A stretch of DNA of 64,000 bases. Origin: Microbacterium sp. zg-Y818 (GTDB lineage Bacteria; Actinomycetota; Actinomycetes; Actinomycetales; Microbacteriaceae). The notes under the pieces were generated by a model. The model saw only the letters and a list, made by a program, of their open reading frames with translations, did no database searches and was not told where the DNA came from. Below are positions 52,630 to 61,427 of the stretch, one piece after another (position 1 is the first letter of the stretch; every line of letters begins with the position of its first letter). The position numbers and the translations under genes were made by a program. The stretch covers positions 2,542,001 to 2,606,000 of the forward strand of contig NZ_CP126741.1 in the NCBI RefSeq assembly GCF_030246905.1. The letters run 5' to 3'.

Positions 52630-53982
52630 GTGAGTGAACGCGTTCTCGTCCAGCAGCTGCAGGGTCTCCCCGATGGACCCGTCTCGGTATCCGGATGGGT
52701 CGAGACGGTCCGCGATCAGAAGAAGGTGCAGTTCGTCATCCTGCGCGACGAGACGGGGGCGGTGCAGCTGGTCAACCCGGCCACCCGTCCGCCCGCCGCC
52801 GACGCGGTCGACGCGCCAGAGCCGGATGCCGACAAGCTGGCACTGACCTCGCTCATCTCGGAGCTGACCACGGGCACCTTCCTGACCGTGACCGGCGAGC
52901 TGAAGCACGACGAGCGCGTCAAGCTCGGCGGCGTCGAGATCAAGATCGGCTCGCTCGAGGTGGCATCCGCAGCTCTCCCCGAGACCCCCATCGCCGCCGA
53001 CAGCGGCATGGACAAGCGCATGGACTGGCGCTTCCTCGACCTGCGCCAGCGCCGCAACAACCTCATCTTCCGCGTGCAGACGACCCTCGAGCACGCGATG
53101 CGCTCGTACTGGATCGAGCGGGACTACATCGAGGTGCACTCCCCCAAGCTCATGGCGTCGGCGTCGGAGTCCAACGCCGAGCTGTTCGAGGTGCCGTACT
53201 TCGAGGACAAGACCGCGTACCTCGCGCAGTCGCCGCAGTTCTTCAAGCAGATGGCCCAGGTCGCCGGCTTCGGCAAGATCTTCGAGATCGCCCCCGCCTT
53301 CCGCGCCGACCCGTCCTTCACCAGCCGCCACGCGACCGAGTTCACTTCGATCGACGCCGAGATCAGCTGGATCGACTCGCACGAGGACGTCGCCGCGATG
53401 CAGGAGGAGCTGCTGCAGACGGCGATCCAGGCGGTCAAGGACAAGCACGGCGCCGAGATCGAGGAGCTGTTCGGCATCGAGGTGCAGGTGCCTGCGATCC
53501 CGTTCCCCCGCATTCCGCTGGCCGAGGCCCGCGAGATCGTGAAGAGCCGCGGCTACGAGATCCCCCGCACAGACGGCGACCTCGACCCCGAGGGCGAGCG
53601 CCAGATCTCGGCGTACGTCGAGGAGACCTACGGTCACCAGTTCGTCTTCATCACCGACTACCACCCCGAGATCCGCGCTTTCTACCACATGCGCGACGAG
53701 CAGACAGGGCTGACGAAGTCCTACGACCTGCTGTTCAAGGGCGTGGAGATCACCACCGGCGCACAGCGCGAGCACCGCGTCGACGTGCTGATCGAGCAGG
53801 CCCGCGAGAAGGGCCTGGAGCCCGAGCACCTCGAGTTCTACTTCGACTTCTTCCGCTACGGTGCCCCGCCGCACGGTGGCTTCGGCATGGGCCTGGCCCG
53901 CGTGCTGATGCTGCTGCTCGGGCAGGACTCGATCCGCGAGGTCACCTACCTCTTCCGCGGACCCACGCGCCTGGCTCCCTGA
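52630..53982 (+). CDS. aspS: Aspartyl-tRNA synthetase, archaeal/eukaryotic type
   Basis: 450 aa. OB fold at 15-110 (VSVSGWVETVRDQKKVQFVI), class II motif 1 around HSPKLMASASESNAELFEV, motif 2 IFEIAPAFRADPSFTSRHATE (as its halves IFEIAPAFRA and SFTSRHATE), and motif 3 GGFGMGLARVLMLL. It has no GAD insertion, and at 450 aa it is much shorter than the bacterial form (about 590). This archaeal-type enzyme is standard in some actinobacteria and may also charge tRNA-Asn. GTG start 52630 follows the promoter above. Confidence 0.95.
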   Translation: MSERVLVQQLQGLPDGPVSVSGWVETVRDQKKVQFVILRDETGAVQLVNPATRPPAADAVDAPEPDADKLALTSLISELTTGTFLTVTGELKHDERVKLGGVEIKIGSLEVASAALPETPIAADSGMDKRMDWRFLDLRQRRNNLIFRVQTTLEHAMRSYWIERDYIEVHSPKLMASASESNAELFEVPYFEDKTAYLAQSPQFFKQMAQVAGFGKIFEIAPAFRADPSFTSRHATEFTSIDAEISWIDSHEDVAAMQEELLQTAIQAVKDKHGAEIEELFGIEVQVPAIPFPRIPLAEAREIVKSRGYEIPRTDGDLDPEGERQISAYVEETYGHQFVFITDYHPEIRAFYHMRDEQTGLTKSYDLLFKGVEITTGAQREHRVDVLIEQAREKGLEPEHLEFYFDFFRYGAPPHGGFGMGLARVLMLLLGQDSIREVTYLFRGPTRLAP

Positions 53983-53992
53983 GCCCGCTCAC

Positions 53993-54493
53993 TCACACCG
54001 AGGGACCACGGCGGGTCGCCGCACAGGCCGCGCACCGGCCGACGAGCGTGCTCTGATCGAGCGCCAGGCTGAAGCCGACCATGGTGCGCAGCATGCGGGC
54101 GGCAGTGCGCATGGCCTCGGGCGGCAGCACGACCACGGCGCCGCATTCGGCGCACTGGCCGTGAAGGTGCCGGCGCCCGGCAGCGGTCGTGGCGAGGTGA
54201 TACCGCGCGGCGCCGCTCGCCGCGTGCTGGCGTGAGACGACACCGGATGCCGCCAGCAGGTCGAGCGTGCGGTACACCGTGGCGCGGTGCACGTCCCCCT
54301 CACCGAGAAGGTTCGCGACCTCATCGGCGGTCAGGTGGTCGGCGCGCGCGGCCAGCACGGTCAGCACCGCGCGCCGGGGTGCGGTGACCCGCTCCCCGCG
54401 CATGCGCAGCGCGCTGATGGCGGCCAGAACGTCGTCGCCACGGGCGGCCGCGTGCAACTCACCGTGCTCGAGACCCACGCCCGCCTCTGCCAT
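53993..54493 (-). CDS. Fur-family metal regulator
   Basis: 166 aa from ATG 54493 (GTG 54499 is also possible). VTAPRRAVLTVLAARADHL and HRATVYRTLDLLAASGVV form the winged helix; RRHLHGQCAECG gives metal ligands H109, H111, C114, C117; C154 and C157 (RCAACA) complete a structural zinc site. It lies 68 bp downstream of the urea transporter gene on the same strand, at the end of the urease operon, so a nickel-responsive (Nur) role is plausible; zinc (Zur) or iron sensing cannot be excluded. Confidence 0.9.
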   Translation of the reverse strand: MAEAGVGLEHGELHAAARGDDVLAAISALRMRGERVTAPRRAVLTVLAARADHLTADEVANLLGEGDVHRATVYRTLDLLAASGVVSRQHAASGAARYHLATTAAGRRHLHGQCAECGAVVVLPPEAMRTAARMLRTMVGFSLALDQSTLVGRCAACAATRRGPSV

Positions 54494-54561
54494 GCCCACA
54501 TGGTGTCACCGCCCCACGGGATCCTCTACCCCCAAGAGAACACGGAGGGCGGTGACACCGG

Positions 54562-55485
54562 TCAGGTGCGCTTCAACCCCGACATGTAGTGCGCAACGAT
54601 CAGTGCCACCCAGGTGGTCAGGATGTACGGCCAGGTGTAGGTGTCCAGCCCCGCGCGGTGCATGAGGAGGGTCACCACAGCCGTCACCACGATCCACGGC
54701 AGCGAGTACAGCCACGACGCGGTGGAGCTCTTCAGGAACGTCACCGCAAGGGCGATGGCGGTCAGCACTCCCGAGTAGTTGGCCAGGCCGTTTGCGATCT
54801 CGCTCCACGACTCGCCCATGGCGATGGCGGTGAGCGTGCCGACGACCGATCCCATGATCGCTGCCAGCCCCACCTTCCAGCTCGCGATGAACAGTCCGAC
54901 GAGAATCAGCGCGCCGCTGATGGGGTTGTCCACCAGCACGACCTGCGACACGTTCGTCAACAGGGACAGGAAGAATGCCGGCACGGGCTCGTCGGGCAGG
55001 TCGGATGCCGGCGAATCGACCGCGAGGCTCAGCGTCGACAGAGCGATGATCGTGGCGACGATGACGAACGGCGCCGTCGTGTACGGCAGGTTGTAGACCT
55101 TCAGCGGCGTCTTGGTGAAAAGCGCGTTGACCAGCCATGTGACCGGCCCGGTCACGAGAGCGCCGACGAAGGCGAGCACGTACGACCACCACGCGTCGCC
55201 ACCCAGCGCGGCGAAGACGGCGGCACCCACAAGGGTGCCGCAGAAGGACTGCATACCCGACGCGACGCTGCTGGGGGGGAAGCCCACGGCGCGCCCACCG
55301 AGCATCCCCCCGACGGCACCGATCGCTGCGAGCACCCCCATGCGCCAGTCCGCGATGACGAAGGCGGCGAGCACGAGGATGCCGGTGATGACGTTCTGCT
55401 GGAAGTAGATCTGTGACGGGCCGTGGAGAAACCCGAGGCCCCACTGGCTCGCGGAACCGCGCTTCTCGGTCTGCGTATCGGTCAT
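54562..55485 (-). CDS. Urea transporter (UT family)
   Basis: 307 aa, about ten helices. Two family repeats are recognisable: LGFLHGPSQIYFQQNVITGI with GMQSFCGTLVGAAVFAALGG, and VVLVDNPISGALILVGLFIA. LPYTTAPFVIVATIIAL is between. This is a channel-like passive urea carrier. ATG 55485 has GGGAGG six bases upstream. It is the last enzyme-linked gene of the urease operon, 22 bp after ureD. Confidence 0.92.
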   Translation of the reverse strand: MTDTQTEKRGSASQWGLGFLHGPSQIYFQQNVITGILVLAAFVIADWRMGVLAAIGAVGGMLGGRAVGFPPSSVASGMQSFCGTLVGAAVFAALGGDAWWSYVLAFVGALVTGPVTWLVNALFTKTPLKVYNLPYTTAPFVIVATIIALSTLSLAVDSPASDLPDEPVPAFFLSLLTNVSQVVLVDNPISGALILVGLFIASWKVGLAAIMGSVVGTLTAIAMGESWSEIANGLANYSGVLTAIALAVTFLKSSTASWLYSLPWIVVTAVVTLLMHRAGLDTYTWPYILTTWVALIVAHYMSGLKRT

Positions 55486-55507
55486 GACGATCCTCCCTGC
55501 CGATTTA

Positions 55508-56548
55508 TCATTTCCTGACGAGCGGCGCCGGCCGCCCGGTGAGCAGTTCGTGCACCGCAGCCGCTGCGCCCGTCTGCGCGGCGAGCGACGTGACGGTGTC
55601 ATCGCCTGCGTAGCGCAGCCACGCGCCGGCATCCGCCGGCAAGACGCTGACCCCGAAGCGGACACTGTCGTCGGAGGATGCCGCGACCACCTTCGCCACG
55701 GCATCGTGCAGTGCCGCCGCCACCCGCGCGGCGGGCTGGAGCGGGGTCACGACGTACAGCGACGACACGATGTCGCGGCCGCCGAGCACCGCGTCGCCGC
55801 CGACGCGACCGTCGCGCGGCACCAGCCGCACGCGGTCGATGGCGACGGGCTCGCCGCCGTGGTCGTCGGGACGGCGAACCTCGAGGTCGCTCGCGTATGC
55901 ATCGAAGGCGTAGCGCTCACCTCGCGTCAGGCGGCCGGCGTACACCGTCTCGCCGACCAGCAGGGTGGCATCCGGATGAACGCGCGCCGTCAGGTGCTGG
56001 TAGAAGCGCGAGTTCGCGTAGGGGATGAGCGGGTCGGGGAGGTACTCGACATACGCACCCTCGGCGACGTCGATGTTGATGATCGACGTGGCGTAGCCCG
56101 AGACCATGCGGTACACCTTCGTGTGCGCCTGGGTCGTGATGAAGGCTGAGGTTCCCTCGCCGAAAGTGAGGTCCATGCGCTGCCGGTCGTTGTGCAGCAC
56201 GCCGCCGCCGGTCGTGATGAGGTACGTGTACGGCATGTCGGGCCGCAAGGTGTTGTAATACAGCGGCTTCATGATCTGCAGCGGAGCCTTCTGGTAGTGA
56301 TGCACCAGCTCCGTGCGCTGGGAGTCGCCCTGTCCGCGCAGCTCGAATCCGAGTTCGAGGATGCCGACTTTGCCGGGGCTCCCCACGGGCAGCGTGTAGC
56401 TCTCGGTGCCGTAGCGGGCCACCTCGATCGGCACGTGCGCCGGCTCGAAGTGGGCGGGCTGCAGCCGCGGCCCGCCGTACAGCGGCGCCGCCTCCGGCGT
56501 CGGCGACGACGACTCGGCATCCACCTCGCCCACCTCGAGATCGGTCAC
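55508..56548 (-). CDS. ureD: Urease accessory protein UreD
   Basis: 346 aa. GGVLHNDRQRMDLTFGEGT and ITTQAHTKVYRM are the UreD core blocks; LVGETVYAGRLTRGERYAF follows. UreD (UreH) holds apo-urease while UreF and UreG deliver nickel. The GTG at 56548 overlaps the ureG stop (GTGA), so this start is preferred over an upstream in-frame GTG at 56578. Confidence 0.93.
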   Translation of the reverse strand: MTDLEVGEVDAESSSPTPEAAPLYGGPRLQPAHFEPAHVPIEVARYGTESYTLPVGSPGKVGILELGFELRGQGDSQRTELVHHYQKAPLQIMKPLYYNTLRPDMPYTYLITTGGGVLHNDRQRMDLTFGEGTSAFITTQAHTKVYRMVSGYATSIINIDVAEGAYVEYLPDPLIPYANSRFYQHLTARVHPDATLLVGETVYAGRLTRGERYAFDAYASDLEVRRPDDHGGEPVAIDRVRLVPRDGRVGGDAVLGGRDIVSSLYVVTPLQPAARVAAALHDAVAKVVAASSDDSVRFGVSVLPADAGAWLRYAGDDTVTSLAAQTGAAAAVHELLTGRPAPLVRK

Positions 56549-57180
56549 GAGACCAGTTCGCCCGTCTTCGCGTGCCACACCGACATGATGGTGTCGAAGA
56601 GCTCCTGCACCCCGGTGCCGTCGAGCGAGTTGGTGAGCACCACCGGCTTGCCGTTTCGCACCGCGTGGGCGTCGCGTTCCATGACCGACAGATCGGTGCG
56701 CACATACTGCGCGATGTCGATCTTGTTGATCACCAGGATGTCGCTCTCGGTGATGCCGGGACCGCGCTTGCGCGGCATCTTCTCCCCCTCCGAGGTGTCC
56801 AGCACGAACACGAACACGTCCGCCAGCGACGGCGAGAAGGTCAGCGTCAGATTGTCGCCCCCGGACTCGTAGATCAGGGTGTCGATGTCGGGGAAGCGCT
56901 CGAGCATCTCCTCACCCGCGGCGAGGTTCATCGTGGGGTCGTCGCGCACCGCGGTGTGAGGGCACGCGCCCGTCTCGACGCCCACGACGCGCTCAGGGTC
57001 GAGGATGCCGGCGAGTTCCCGCCGCACGTGGTGGGCGTCCTCCTGGGTGTAGATGTCGTTGGTGATGACGCCCGGGGTGCGGCCGGCGGCGATGAAGATG
57101 GGCACCAGCGCCTCGGTGAGCGCCGTCTTCCCCGACCCGACGGGGCCGCCGATTCCGACGCGCAGAACGTTGTCGCTCAT
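56545..57180 (-). CDS. ureG: Urease accessory GTPase UreG
   Basis: 211 aa. Walker A GGPVGSGKTAL (11-21), VITNDIYTQEDA, VETGACPHTAVRDD (the CPH nickel-binding motif) and VINKIDIAQYV are all present. GTP hydrolysis drives nickel insertion into urease. ATG 57180 has GAGGAA upstream. It lies 31 bp after ureF and overlaps ureD. Confidence 0.97.
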   Translation of the reverse strand: MSDNVLRVGIGGPVGSGKTALTEALVPIFIAAGRTPGVITNDIYTQEDAHHVRRELAGILDPERVVGVETGACPHTAVRDDPTMNLAAGEEMLERFPDIDTLIYESGGDNLTLTFSPSLADVFVFVLDTSEGEKMPRKRGPGITESDILVINKIDIAQYVRTDLSVMERDAHAVRNGKPVVLTNSLDGTGVQELFDTIMSVWHAKTGELVS

Positions 57181-57211
57181 GGGGTTCCTCTTTCTTTGCA
57201 TTCGTGGGATC

Positions 57212-57937
57212 TCAGTTGGTGAACAGTCGCGCTTCGGCACGCTCGTGGCCGGCCGACATGATGTCGCCCATCGGCACGAAGCCGCCGATGTCGGCGACCG
57301 GGCGCACCAGCGCGTCTTCGGTCACCGCCTCGATGACCGGGTGCACCCGCCGGATCATCACCTGCGCCGACCGGTGGTCGGCCAGGCGCAGGCGCAGAGC
57401 GGCGAACGCGTAGCTCGCCGCGAAGGCGAAGAGGTCCGCCGCCACCGCCGCGGCGATGGGCACCCGTTCCGCCGCGTAGCAGACCGCCGTCACGACGGGC
57501 TGGCAGCCCGGCGTGCGGCGCTGCTTCACCCGGGCGGCCCAGGCCGCGATGTCGTCGGCACCAGGCGTCCCCTCGAAGATCTCCGCGGTGATGTCGGCCA
57601 GCTGCCTTCCGCTGCGCACGCTGGACGTGCGCAGCTCCGCGTTCAGCTTCGACGCGTACAGCACCCGGTCGACCTCGGCCACGGCATCCCACTCGCCGCG
57701 GGACGCACATCCGTGCGCCCGAGCGAGCGCCGTGGCGTCCCCCGGCCCCACAGAGGAGATCAACAGGTCCTCGAGCAGGTCGCCCACCGTGCCGGCATCC
57801 ACGAGCCCGGCCTGGTGGAATCCCTCCAGGCCGTGCGACATCGTGTAGAAGCCACTGGGGAATGCGGAGTCGGTCAGTTGCAGGCCGACCAGCAGCGGTG
57901 CCACCGCCGACCCCGCACTCGTGGTCGTGATCGTCAT
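57212..57937 (-). CDS. ureF: Urease accessory protein UreF
   Basis: 241 aa, all-helical. LTDSAFPSGFYTMSHGLEGF is the family start, and the C-terminal VADIGGFVPMGDIMSAGHE supplies the conserved tail that binds UreD. It starts 10 bp after ureC on the same strand. UreF acts as the gate in the UreD-UreF-UreG complex. Confidence 0.94.
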   Translation of the reverse strand: MTITTTSAGSAVAPLLVGLQLTDSAFPSGFYTMSHGLEGFHQAGLVDAGTVGDLLEDLLISSVGPGDATALARAHGCASRGEWDAVAEVDRVLYASKLNAELRTSSVRSGRQLADITAEIFEGTPGADDIAAWAARVKQRRTPGCQPVVTAVCYAAERVPIAAAVAADLFAFAASYAFAALRLRLADHRSAQVMIRRVHPVIEAVTEDALVRPVADIGGFVPMGDIMSAGHERAEARLFTN

Positions 57938-57947
57938 ATCGGGGCGA

Positions 57948-59672
57948 TCATGCGAGGAAGAACAGCTGGGTCAGCGGCAGCGCCTGGGCCGGTTCGATCT
58001 CTGCCGGGACCCCATCCAGCGACACCCGGTAGGTCTCCGGATCGACCGTGACCTCCGGGGTCTCGCTGTTGCGCACCATGCTGCTCTTGCCGATCGATCG
58101 GGTGTTGCGCACCGGGAGGATCTGGCTCTTCAGCCCGAGCATCTCCGGCACCCCCTTCTCGATCGACACCTTCGACACGAACGTCGCCCGCGTCGCGTGC
58201 AGCGGCTGCGGCAGGGCACCGAACGCCGGCCGGAAGTACACCGGCTGGGGCGTGGGCAGCGAGGCGTTGGGGTCGCCCATCAGACCCCAGTTGATCAGGC
58301 CGCCCTTGATGACCACCTTCGGCTTCGCCGCGAACGTGTCCACCGGCCACAGCACGATGTCGGCCATCTTGCCCGGCTCGAGCGAGCCGACGTAGTCCGA
58401 GATGCCGTGGGTGATCGCGGGGTTGATCGTCACCTTCGCGAGGTACCGCAGCACCCGGAAGTTGTCGTTGTCCTCGGCATCCTCCGGCAGCTTGCCGCGC
58501 TTGTCCTTGCAGTGGTGCGCCGTCTGGAACGCCCTCGTCACCGACTCGCCGATACGGCCCATGGCCTGCGAGTCCGACGAGAACATGGAGATGACGCCCA
58601 TGTCCTGCAGCACGGTCTCTGCCGAGATCGTCTCGGCGCGCACCCGGGAGTCGGCGAACGCGACGTCCTCCGGGGCGTCGTACGAGAGGTGGTGGCACAC
58701 CATCACCATGTCCAGCAGCTCGTCGACGGAGTTGACCGTGTAGGGCAGGGTGGGATTCGTCGAGGACGGCAGCACGTTGGACTGCCCCGCGATCTTCATG
58801 ATGTCCGGGGCGTGTCCACCGCCGGCACCCTCGGTGTGGTACGTGTGGATCGTCCGGCCATTGATCGCCGAGATGGTGTTCTCCACGAATCCCGACTCGT
58901 TCAGGCTGTCGGTGTGGATGGCGACCTGGATGTCGTACTCGTCGGCGATCTGCAACGCCATGTCGATGGCGGCCGGAGTCGTTCCCCAGTCCTCGTGCAC
59001 CTTCAGCCCACCCGCGCCGGCTTCCACCTGGTCGATGAGCGCCTGCGGCAGCGAGCTGTTGCCCTTGCCGTGGATGCCCACATTGATGGGGAGGTCGTCC
59101 CATGCCTGCAGCATGCGGTGGATGTTCCACGTGCCCGGTGTGCAGGTCGTGCCGTTGGTGCCGTCGGTCGGGCCGGTCCCACCGCCGAAGAGCGTGGTGA
59201 TGCCGTTGGACAGCGCGTTGTACACCTGCTGCGGGGAGATGAAGTGCACGTGCGGGTCCATCGCTCCGGCGGTCGCGATGAGGTGCTCACCGGCGATCAC
59301 CTCGGTGCCGGGGCCGACGACGAGGTGCGGATCGACGCCCTTCTGCGTCTGCGGGTTGCCGGACTTGCCGATGCCGGCGATCTTGCCGTCCCGCACGCCG
59401 ATGTCTGCTTTGACGATGCCGAGGATGGCATCCATCACGATCACGTTCGTGATCACGAGGTCGAGCGATCCCTGCGAGGAGCTGGCTTGGGGGTCTGATC
59501 CCATGCCGTCGCGGGCGGACTTGCCGCCGCCGTACACGACCTCGTCGCCGTAGCTGTCAGCGGCGTAGTCCTTCTCGATCTCGATGACGAGGTTCGTGTC
59601 TGCCAGAGGCACGCGGTCGCCGACGGTCGGACCGAAGAGGTCGGTGTACTGCTTCTTGGAGATGATGGCCAT
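57948..59672 (-). CDS. ureC: Urease alpha subunit
   Basis: 574 aa, full length. Nickel ligands are visible: HVH (141-143), the carbamylated lysine K224 in [12 protein letters not shown]253 and H279; the active-site flap C326-H327-H328 is in MVCHHLS. The enzyme splits urea to ammonia and carbonic acid. ATG 59672 lies 2 bp after the ureB stop, so the two are tightly coupled. Confidence 0.98.
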
Positions 59673-59674
59673 GG

Positions 59675-60151
59675 CTACTTGCTCCCCTTCTTGCTTCCGG
59701 ATGCCTTGTTGTCTGCTTTTGCGTTACCAGACGACTTTTTCGCCGTCGCCGGGCTCGCATTCCCGCCGCTGTCGGCCTCGCCGTTCTGGTACCCGCGCTC
59801 GGCGAGCATCCTCATAGCGTCGGCCTTGGTCTGCGCCGCATCGAGGCCGCCGTTGACGAACCCGTTGAACCCCACGACGCGGCGGGCACCGGCGAAGGCG
59901 ACCAGGGTGACCTGCTTGGTCTCTCCTGGTTCGAAACGCACCCCGCTGCCGGCGGGGATGTCCAGGTGCATGCCCCATGCCTGCTCACGCGGAAAGAGCA
60001 TGGCGGAGTTGACTTCGAAGAAGTGGAAGTGCGAGCCGATCTGCACCGGCCGGTCGCCGGTGTTCGTGACATTCATCGTCGCCGAGGGCCGGCCCTCGTT
60101 GATCTCGATGGTGTCGGCACCGTGGTGGTAGCTGGGGCGTCTGCTGAGCAT
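59675..60151 (-). CDS. ureB: Urease beta subunit with Lys/Ser-rich tail
   Basis: 158 aa. The first 105 residues are normal UreB ([49 protein letters not shown]). A tail of roughly 50 residues then runs into a low-complexity Lys/Ser/Ala stretch ending [10 protein letters not shown], longer than most. ATG 60151 has GGAGGG upstream. It lies between the CbiX-like gene and ureC. Confidence 0.96.
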
Positions 60152-60172: not shown

Positions 60173-61060
60173 TCAGTGGTCGTGGTCGTGGTGCGCGTCG
60201 GAGAGCGCCAACGCGTCGCTGTCGTGATGGTGCAGCACGTGGGCGTGCAGGCCCCCGTGCGTGTGGGAGTGCCGCGTTCCGTCGGCGTGGTCGTGCGGAT
60301 GCGGGTGGGTGTGAGCCTCCTCCTCGAACGCGTGCGAGTGGGCGTACCCGTGGCCGTGGTCGGCGAGGAGCCCCGTGTCGATGCCGTCGTCGCCGGCATC
60401 GAGGGCGGCGAGCGCGTCGCGCACCCGGGTGCCGATCACCCGCACGATCGACGCGTCGCTCATCACCGGGCCGCCGAATTCGACGTCTGCGGCGGGCAGC
60501 GAGGCGGCGAATCCCGCAGGAACCGCCACGACGCGCGTCGCGCCGAGCCGGCGCAGCCGCGCCGCTGCCGCGGAGAGCTGTGCGCCGTCGTCGGCGATCG
60601 CCACCGCCACCTCGTCGAGCGCTCCGTGCGTGGCGACGAGATAGCCCACGCGGTGCAGCTCCGCTTCGTCGAACGGGTTGGAGTGCGGCGCGACGATGAG
60701 CAGAGCGGATGCCGGATCGACGAGACTCGCCCGATTGGCCGCGGTGCGCAGCCAGGCTGTGAGATGGTCGATCTGCCCGAAGGGGGCGGTCAGCGCGATC
60801 CGCCCAGCGTGCGTACGGTTCAGCCAGCGGAGCGTCTTGGCCGCGTCGGCGACCATGGCGGGGTCCCGCCCGAAGGTCATCGGGAGCACCACGACGGGGT
60901 CGCCGTGGTCGAGCGCGGCGCTGACGATGTTGTGCAGCGCCCGGCCCGCGACCGTGGTGCGCGCGCCGTCCACGAGCGGCTCGAACCGCTCGAGGTCGCG
61001 CGCGTCGTCGCTCTCGTGCCCGCCGACGAGGACGATCTGCACTCCGGTGGCGCCCGTCAT
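60173..61060 (-). CDS. CbiX-like chelatase-fold protein with His-rich tail, in the urease operon
   Basis: 295 aa, between ureA and ureB. The first 230 residues have the two-domain plan of the CbiX/sirohydrochlorin chelatase family (VLVGGHESDDARDLERF, VVVLPMTFGRDPAMVADAA, LIVAPHSNPFDEAEL), though one of the usual metal-binding histidines seems missing. The last 61 residues hold 21 histidines, much like the nickel-binding tail of UreE. No ureE is in the operon, so I infer a nickel store or chaperone that replaces it. ATG 61060 lies 4 bp after the ureA stop, with GAGGAG unusually close. Confidence 0.8.
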   Translation of the reverse strand: MTGATGVQIVLVGGHESDDARDLERFEPLVDGARTTVAGRALHNIVSAALDHGDPVVVLPMTFGRDPAMVADAAKTLRWLNRTHAGRIALTAPFGQIDHLTAWLRTAANRASLVDPASALLIVAPHSNPFDEAELHRVGYLVATHGALDEVAVAIADDGAQLSAAAARLRRLGATRVVAVPAGFAASLPAADVEFGGPVMSDASIVRVIGTRVRDALAALDAGDDGIDTGLLADHGHGYAHSHAFEEEAHTHPHPHDHADGTRHSHTHGGLHAHVLHHHDSDALALSDAHHDHDH

Positions 61061-61064
61061 CTCC

Positions 61065-61370
61065 TCAGCCGCCGATGGGGTCGTGGCAGGAGACCAGTTT
61101 CGTGCCGTCGGGGAATGTCGCTTCGACCTGCAGAAGCGTGACTCGTTCACGGACGCCGGGCATGCACTGGTCGACCGTGACGATTTTCTTTCCCAGCTCC
61201 ATGCAGTCCGAGACGGTCTTGCCGTCACGGGCGGCTTCGAGAACCCCCTCCGTCACGAGGGCGATCGCCTCACTGACGTTGAGCTTCGTGCCGCGATCTC
61301 GGCGGCGTCGCGCGAGTTCCGCGACCTGGTAGACGTACAGCTTGTCGATCTCGCGTGGCGTGAGGTCCAT
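61065..61370 (-). CDS. ureA: Urease gamma subunit
   Basis: 101 aa, full length. MDLTPREIDKLYVYQVAELA opens it, and KLNVSEAIALVTEGVLEAAR and PGVRERVTLLQVEATFPDGT are the family blocks. ATG 61370 has AGGAG seven bases upstream; the frame above has no urease sequence. It is the first gene of the operon, with the promoter region in the next 200 bp. Confidence 0.96.
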   Translation of the reverse strand: MDLTPREIDKLYVYQVAELARRRRDRGTKLNVSEAIALVTEGVLEAARDGKTVSDCMELGKKIVTVDQCMPGVRERVTLLQVEATFPDGTKLVSCHDPIGG

Positions 61371-61427
61371 TGCAGCTCCTGACATCCGATTGAGAGAGGA
61401 CGCGCTCCGACGTGTGTGCGTGGGGCG

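Follow-up and report, generated by a model that had tools for sequence, protein, structure and literature searches.

A histidine-rich chelatase-like protein encoded between ureA and ureB as a candidate nickel donor for one clade of ureases

The urease operon of Microbacterium sp. zg-Y818 contains, between the genes of two urease subunits, a gene for a histidine-rich chelatase-like protein (working label CbiXL). We consider it likely that this protein is a nickel metallochaperone or nickel donor for urease, derived from a two-domain CbiX-type chelatase and replacing both UreE and the histidine tail of UreG. We infer that the metal is nickel, that it is handed on and not only stored, and that UreG is the receiver. 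The urease operons in which the protein occurs lack the usual nickel-supplying parts, and it probably represents a so far undescribed way of supplying urease with nickel. No account of the gene was found in the mostly open-access literature on urease together with chelatase, sirohydrochlorin or CbiX. A 2026 Microbacterium paper, in its accessible portion, describes UreE as missing and leaves the nickel donor open (PMC13152184). A concrete gene is now proposed as the nickel donor for one urease clade, and the proposal is directly testable.

The gene, its operon and its relatives

The stretch of DNA analysed, hereafter the window, comprises 64,000 nucleotides. The features referred to below, in coordinates of the window, are:

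60173..61060, minus strand: gene of the histidine-rich chelatase-like protein, an open reading frame (ORF) of 295 aa with an ATG start, assigned from its fold and its relatives
60176..60358, minus strand: histidine-rich C-terminal 61 residues with 21 His (residue count; pLDDT 50-67 from residue 241)
60323..60364, minus strand: conserved motif ADHGHGYAHSHAFE, residues 233-246 (alignment of 57 sequences and 37 loci)
61016..61018, minus strand: H15 (in GHES), probably corresponding to the first metal ligand of chelatases (57/57 aligned, 36/37 loci)
60845..60883, minus strand: PMTFGRDPAMVAD, residues 60-72, His-free region of the second metal ligand of chelatases (alignments)
61065..61376, minus strand: ureA, urease gamma subunit (Pfam PF00547, Urease_gamma, 2e-40)
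59675..60151, minus strand: ureB, urease beta subunit (Pfam PF00699, Urease_beta, 1.2e-40)
57948..59672, minus strand: ureC, urease alpha subunit (Pfam PF00449 and PF01979)
57212..57937, minus strand: ureF (Pfam PF01730)
56545..57183, minus strand: ureG, with a short N-terminus and no His tail (Pfam PF02492; tail counts)
55508..56578, minus strand: ureD (Pfam PF01774)
54562..55491, minus strand: urea transporter of the UT family (Pfam PF03253)

The 295-codon ORF proved intact, and the residue count and the Pfam assignments of the neighbours confirmed what a sequence-only reading of the window had stated about the 21 histidines and the location between ureA and ureB. The operon runs in the order ureA, the chelatase-like gene, ureB, ureC, ureF, ureG, ureD and the urea transporter. 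Only 4 bases (GGAG) separate the TGA of ureA from the ATG of the chelatase-like gene, and 21 bases containing GGAGGG lie between its stop and the ATG of ureB, a tight spacing that makes translational coupling with the neighbours likely. The genome consists of one contig of 3.23 Mb, is 100% complete and holds a single copy of the gene. On the same strand, the next gene after the urea transporter encodes a Fur-family regulator (53993-54499, minus strand; PF01475, 8.5e-18), which could be the metal sensor of the urease operon. Convergent to it lies an ORF at 52630-53982 on the plus strand that resembles, by eye, aspartyl-tRNA synthetase.

Our searches found 232 relatives, some of which are named sirohydrochlorin chelatase or CbiX in the databases; the alignment of 57 sequences used below consists of the window protein and 56 of the best 120 of these relatives. 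A scan of named genomes, which relied on two short peptide patterns and may therefore miss very distant relatives, yielded 29 loci in 14 genera: Microbacterium, Humibacter, Arthrobacter, Oerskovia, Sanguibacter, Cellulomonas, Rhodococcus, Microterricola, Mumia, Nocardioides, Antrihabitans, Speluncibacter, Catenulispora and Corynebacterium. Within the family of the window's organism (Microbacteriaceae), 8 of 299 genomes matched, seven strongly (E 2.2e-67 or better) and one weakly (E 8e-4), the weak match having no adjoining urease genes. Within its class, 25 of 394 genomes matched. Five of these matches were strong (E 5.3e-58 or better) and 20 had E 6.9e-9 or worse, those of the latter that were read being CbiX proteins or unclear.

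Removal of duplicates left 37 distinct loci (36 distinct cores and the most distant locus, L030). The order ureA, chelatase-like gene, ureB was found in all 37, including one locus whose ureB was missed by BLAST and identified by eye. The sequence-only reading had regarded this place as unusual for such a gene; the gene is not misplaced. Individual loci showed peculiarities of their own. In one Arthrobacter locus, a NicO nickel permease gene lies between ureD and the urea transporter gene, and in Arthrobacter sp. ATA002 both ureC and ureG were recovered in two tblastn pieces each, which probably reflects frameshifts or sequencing errors.

Chelatase fold, metal-ligand residues and histidine tail

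The AlphaFold2 model of the window protein had a pLDDT of 95-98 over residues 11-230 and contained the bilobal fold of class II chelatases, with SirB as the top-ranking solved structure in each of the two fold searches using this model. A profile search of the window protein matched no Pfam or NCBIfam family up to E 10, PF01903 (CbiX) and the UreE domain included. PF01903 was matched by 16 of the 57 aligned proteins at E ≤0.01, which indicates distant kinship with CbiX, and a global profile-profile comparison with actinobacterial CbiX proteins gave a match of 99.4% probability (eight such proteins served as controls; all six that were scanned match PF01903). The CbiX fold named in the sequence-only reading is thus upheld by the model, by SirB and by the relatives, although the window protein itself has no profile match. 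Two matches from a sequence search of the PDB, with E 0.24 and 0.68, were taken as chance.

The residues that would hold the metal in a chelatase are conserved only in part. H15 is a histidine in all aligned proteins and in every locus except L030, and judging from the alignments it is the probable equivalent of the first chelatase ligand (SirB His10); hhalign sets the CbiX histidine against a gap two columns ahead of H15. Positions 58-80, where the second ligand is expected, contain no histidine in any of the 57 aligned proteins, and among the 37 loci one occurs there in two only, near the end of the stretch in L015 and within GRHP in L030. The loss of one metal-site histidine, suspected earlier for the window protein, accordingly extends across the alignment. 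CxxC was found in none of the 57 sequences. MxCxxC is present in four of the eight actinobacterial CbiX controls; among the other four, one undetermined residue and one masked stretch fall at this place.

Uroporphyrinogen-III methyltransferase (SUMT) makes the substrate of these chelatases. The own genome has no SUMT (TIGR01469) over the cut-off, its best score being 19.8 bits against 185, and no CbiX-family match. In the 36 genomes carrying the gene that were searched for SUMT, two duplicates among them, 22 had SUMT over the cut-off and 14, including the own genome, did not. The missing ligand histidine and the own genome without SUMT make activity as a sirohydrochlorin chelatase very unlikely, barring a SUMT in the own genome that escapes recognition, and an ordinary CbiX protein was rejected as a candidate on the same grounds. 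A true sirohydrochlorin metal chelatase for Co, Fe or Ni, present in the urease operon by chance, would explain the fold, the PF01903 matches, the database names of some relatives, the retention of H15 and the SUMT of the 22 genomes. However, with the second ligand absent throughout the alignment, SUMT below the cut-off in the own genome and 13 others, and a urease-operon location in all 37 loci, we give this explanation hardly any credence. The name sirohydrochlorin chelatase on such genes is probably wrong.

The whole protein contains 29 histidines. The 21 in its last 61 residues would arise by chance with a binomial probability of about 8e-20, given an assumed histidine background of 2.2%, and none of eight other products (UreA, UreB, UreC, UreD, UreF, UreG, the urea transporter and the Fur-family protein) exceeds 4 His per 40 residues. 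The tail opens with the motif ADHGHGYAHSH, of which D234, H235, H237, H241 and H243 are invariant in the 57 aligned proteins. Across the 37 loci, H241 is present in 37, H243 in 36, H237 in 36, H235 in 35 and D234 in 32, the motif being looser in the distant loci L025, L027, L028, L107 and L109. L030, which has lost H15, retains the histidine motif. From the motif onward, the segment is long and variable, with a median of 17 histidines (range 9-32 in 57 sequences), and the low pLDDT of the block from residue 241 suggests that the tail is probably disordered. The sequence-only reading had likened this tail to that of UreE, which stands as far as a histidine-rich C-terminus is concerned; it had missed the conserved opening motif. 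The conservation of ADHGHGYAHSH in the alignment points to a putative defined metal site and not merely a sponge. Histidine-rich tails bind Zn, Co and Cu as well.

A long, variable, histidine-dense and predicted disordered segment could also belong to a nickel store or buffer resembling Hpn-type proteins, which would sequester nickel near urease, or guard against excess Ni, Zn or Co there, without a specific hand-over to UreG. The histidine-rich region of CbiX-L from Bacillus megaterium, as described in the accessible text of its report, is dispensable for cobalt insertion and has likewise been proposed to store and deliver metal (PMC7689651). However, conservation extends to both the post-core motif and the folded core, and with UreG bare in 32 of 32 loci, as described below, the operon would have no dedicated donor. 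We therefore consider a mere store or buffer unlikely.

UreE, UreG and the placement of histidine-rich segments

The sequence-only reading had started from a missing UreE and named a ureE elsewhere in the genome as evidence against its proposal. UreE_N (PF02814), the profile searched with UreE_C left out, matched nothing in the complete own genome. It also matched none of the 37 distinct genomes with the gene (35 that include two duplicates, the own genome and three further ones), which extends the check to the homologues in other urease operons that the same reading had suggested. Of the 394 genomes of the class, however, only 7 have UreE_N over the cut-off, while Urease_alpha matches in 178. 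UreE is thus rare in the class and its absence alone is weak evidence, for which reason we dropped it as the main argument. HypB as an alternative nickel donor was rejected, being over the cut-off in only 3 of the 37 genomes, the own genome not among them; the sub-threshold HypB match of the own genome falls on ureG itself.

According to the available part of Haas 2009, ureE-less genomes, all but two, have a histidine stretch in UreG (PMC2770081), and UreG was therefore examined in 144 urease loci. These are the scored part of a table of 178 loci, from which loci shorter than 7,000 bases and nine duplicates had been excluded and in which 34 rows lacked a UreG within reach (33 without the chelatase-like protein and 1 with it). 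A UreG was counted as His-tailed if its N-terminal extension or its last 35 residues contained at least 3 His; the C-terminal criterion was added post hoc, after a first look at the data, and the starts of UreG were set by a ribosome-site heuristic. The 33 loci without chelatase-like protein, UreE or UreG in the fetched stretch (L157, L176, L191, L218 and others) look like orphan ureABC that have no accessory genes close by; some of these stretches end at contig ends and many are about 12 kb long.

A UreG His tail was found in none of the 40 loci with the chelatase-like protein (32) or UreE (8), and in 99 of the 104 loci with neither; the remaining five UreG proteins have 1-2 His. Four further loci with the chelatase-like protein likewise had no UreG tail (0/4). 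Some tailed UreG barely pass the threshold of 3 His, and together with the five below it they indicate that a strong tail is no absolute necessity. Fisher's test gave p = 1.8e-30 for this exclusion, a value that ignores the kinship of the loci within one clade and overstates the case. The bare UreG and the 37 genomes without UreE_N strengthen the earlier proposal that the protein replaces the usual nickel store or donor, even if the missing UreE says little by itself.

The tail of UreG takes two forms, an N-terminal one of the MHLDH type and a C-terminal one, mostly on UreG of the GPVGTGKS type. Most of the 31 loci with a UreG P-loop outside our first pattern carry the C-terminal form. Long C-terminal tails occur in L097, L099-L101, L254-L266 and L269, from the window's family and its relatives, and C-terminally tailed UreG has mostly a GPVGTGKS-like P-loop, which was read in L097 and L099-L101 only. 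Four loci (L243, L245, L267 and L268) have very divergent urease operons, with UreC 46-49% identical to that of the window, and a divergent UreE. The UreE of L245, L267 and L268 lay beyond the first tblastn seeds and is counted in the final tallies.

The partition is complete within the window's family. Its 299 genomes contain 25 long UreC matches, corresponding to 25 urease loci, of which 7 have the chelatase-like protein, 3 UreE and 15 a His-tailed UreG, with no overlap of the three classes within loci and every locus belonging to one of them. The seven genomes matching the chelatase-like protein strongly are exactly the seven whose UreC is at least 75% identical to that of the window. The other 18 UreC are 48-58% identical, and the tail of the 15 UreG is C-terminal. 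Two genomes, G195 and G418, each combine two kinds of urease operon, one in which the chelatase-like protein accompanies a bare UreG and one with a His-tailed UreG.

In a UreC tree of 112 of the 176 rows (30 of 74 with an N-terminal tail, 12 of 32 UreG-less loci and all of the other groups), 32 of 32 rows with the chelatase-like protein grouped in a single clade (SH-aLRT 99), and the tree offered one independent pair for the exclusion test. The exclusion pattern thus reflects one event followed by long conservation and not repeated convergence, and one pair allows no repeated-event statistics. The strict linkage to one UreC clade, the position between structural genes and the tight spacing with its likely translational coupling would also suit a structural or assembly factor of urease itself that is synthesised together with UreA and UreB, binds apo-urease and offers its His tail as a local nickel funnel, with no contact to UreG. 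However, loci of sufficient length do contain UreF, UreG and UreD, and it is the UreG tail, not any feature of a structural subunit, with which the protein is mutually exclusive. We regard such a factor as improbable.

Proposed nickel supply to urease and comparison with known systems

In the nickel donor reading that we favour, a two-domain CbiX-type chelatase would have lost its tetrapyrrole chemistry, and its ADHGHGYAHSH site and histidine-rich tail would bind Ni(II). The metal would then pass to the tail-less UreG or to the complex of UreG, UreF, UreD and apourease, a job otherwise done by UreE or, in most actinobacterial loci examined, by the UreG His tail. Against the donor reading, genes of accessory proteins do not usually lie between those of structural subunits. 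We lean, by a little, towards a wider formulation as well: a chelatase stripped of its catalysis may serve as the dedicated nickel metallochaperone of the whole urease clade, its motif site loading UreG, and form a third, fold-unrelated nickel delivery besides UreE and His-tailed UreG. Any urease operon can serve to check the resulting rule, by which the histidine segment would be found on UreE, on the N- or C-terminus of UreG or on a chelatase-like protein.

At the metal-ligand site, the window protein is to be compared with SirB, CfbA and CbiK. The metal site comprises His10 and His76 in SirB and His9 and His75 in CfbA, according to the accessible part of the source (PMC11301274), and the second of these is absent in the window protein. 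CbiX-L, the cobaltochelatase of B. megaterium, likewise combines a two-domain chelatase fold with a histidine-rich C-terminal tail. It has both His14 and His79, as stated in the portion of its report at hand (PMC7689651), whereas the window protein is without the second ligand histidine. Furthermore, CbiX-L has an MxCxxC Fe-S site, while the 57 aligned proteins have no CxxC, and unlike CbiX-L the chelatase-like protein is encoded in urease operons and is present even where the genome has no SUMT over the cut-off.

The window protein resembles UreE in its proposed role, its histidine-rich C-terminus and the same exclusion with the UreG His tail, as seen in the eight UreE loci, but it has a chelatase fold in place of a UreE domain. 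In ureE-less systems with a His-stretch UreG, such as those of Mycobacterium tuberculosis, Arabidopsis and others, UreG itself supplies the histidine-rich metal-binding segment, as the available text of Haas 2009 describes (PMC2770081). In the operon of the window, by contrast, UreG is bare and the histidine segment belongs to a protein of its own.
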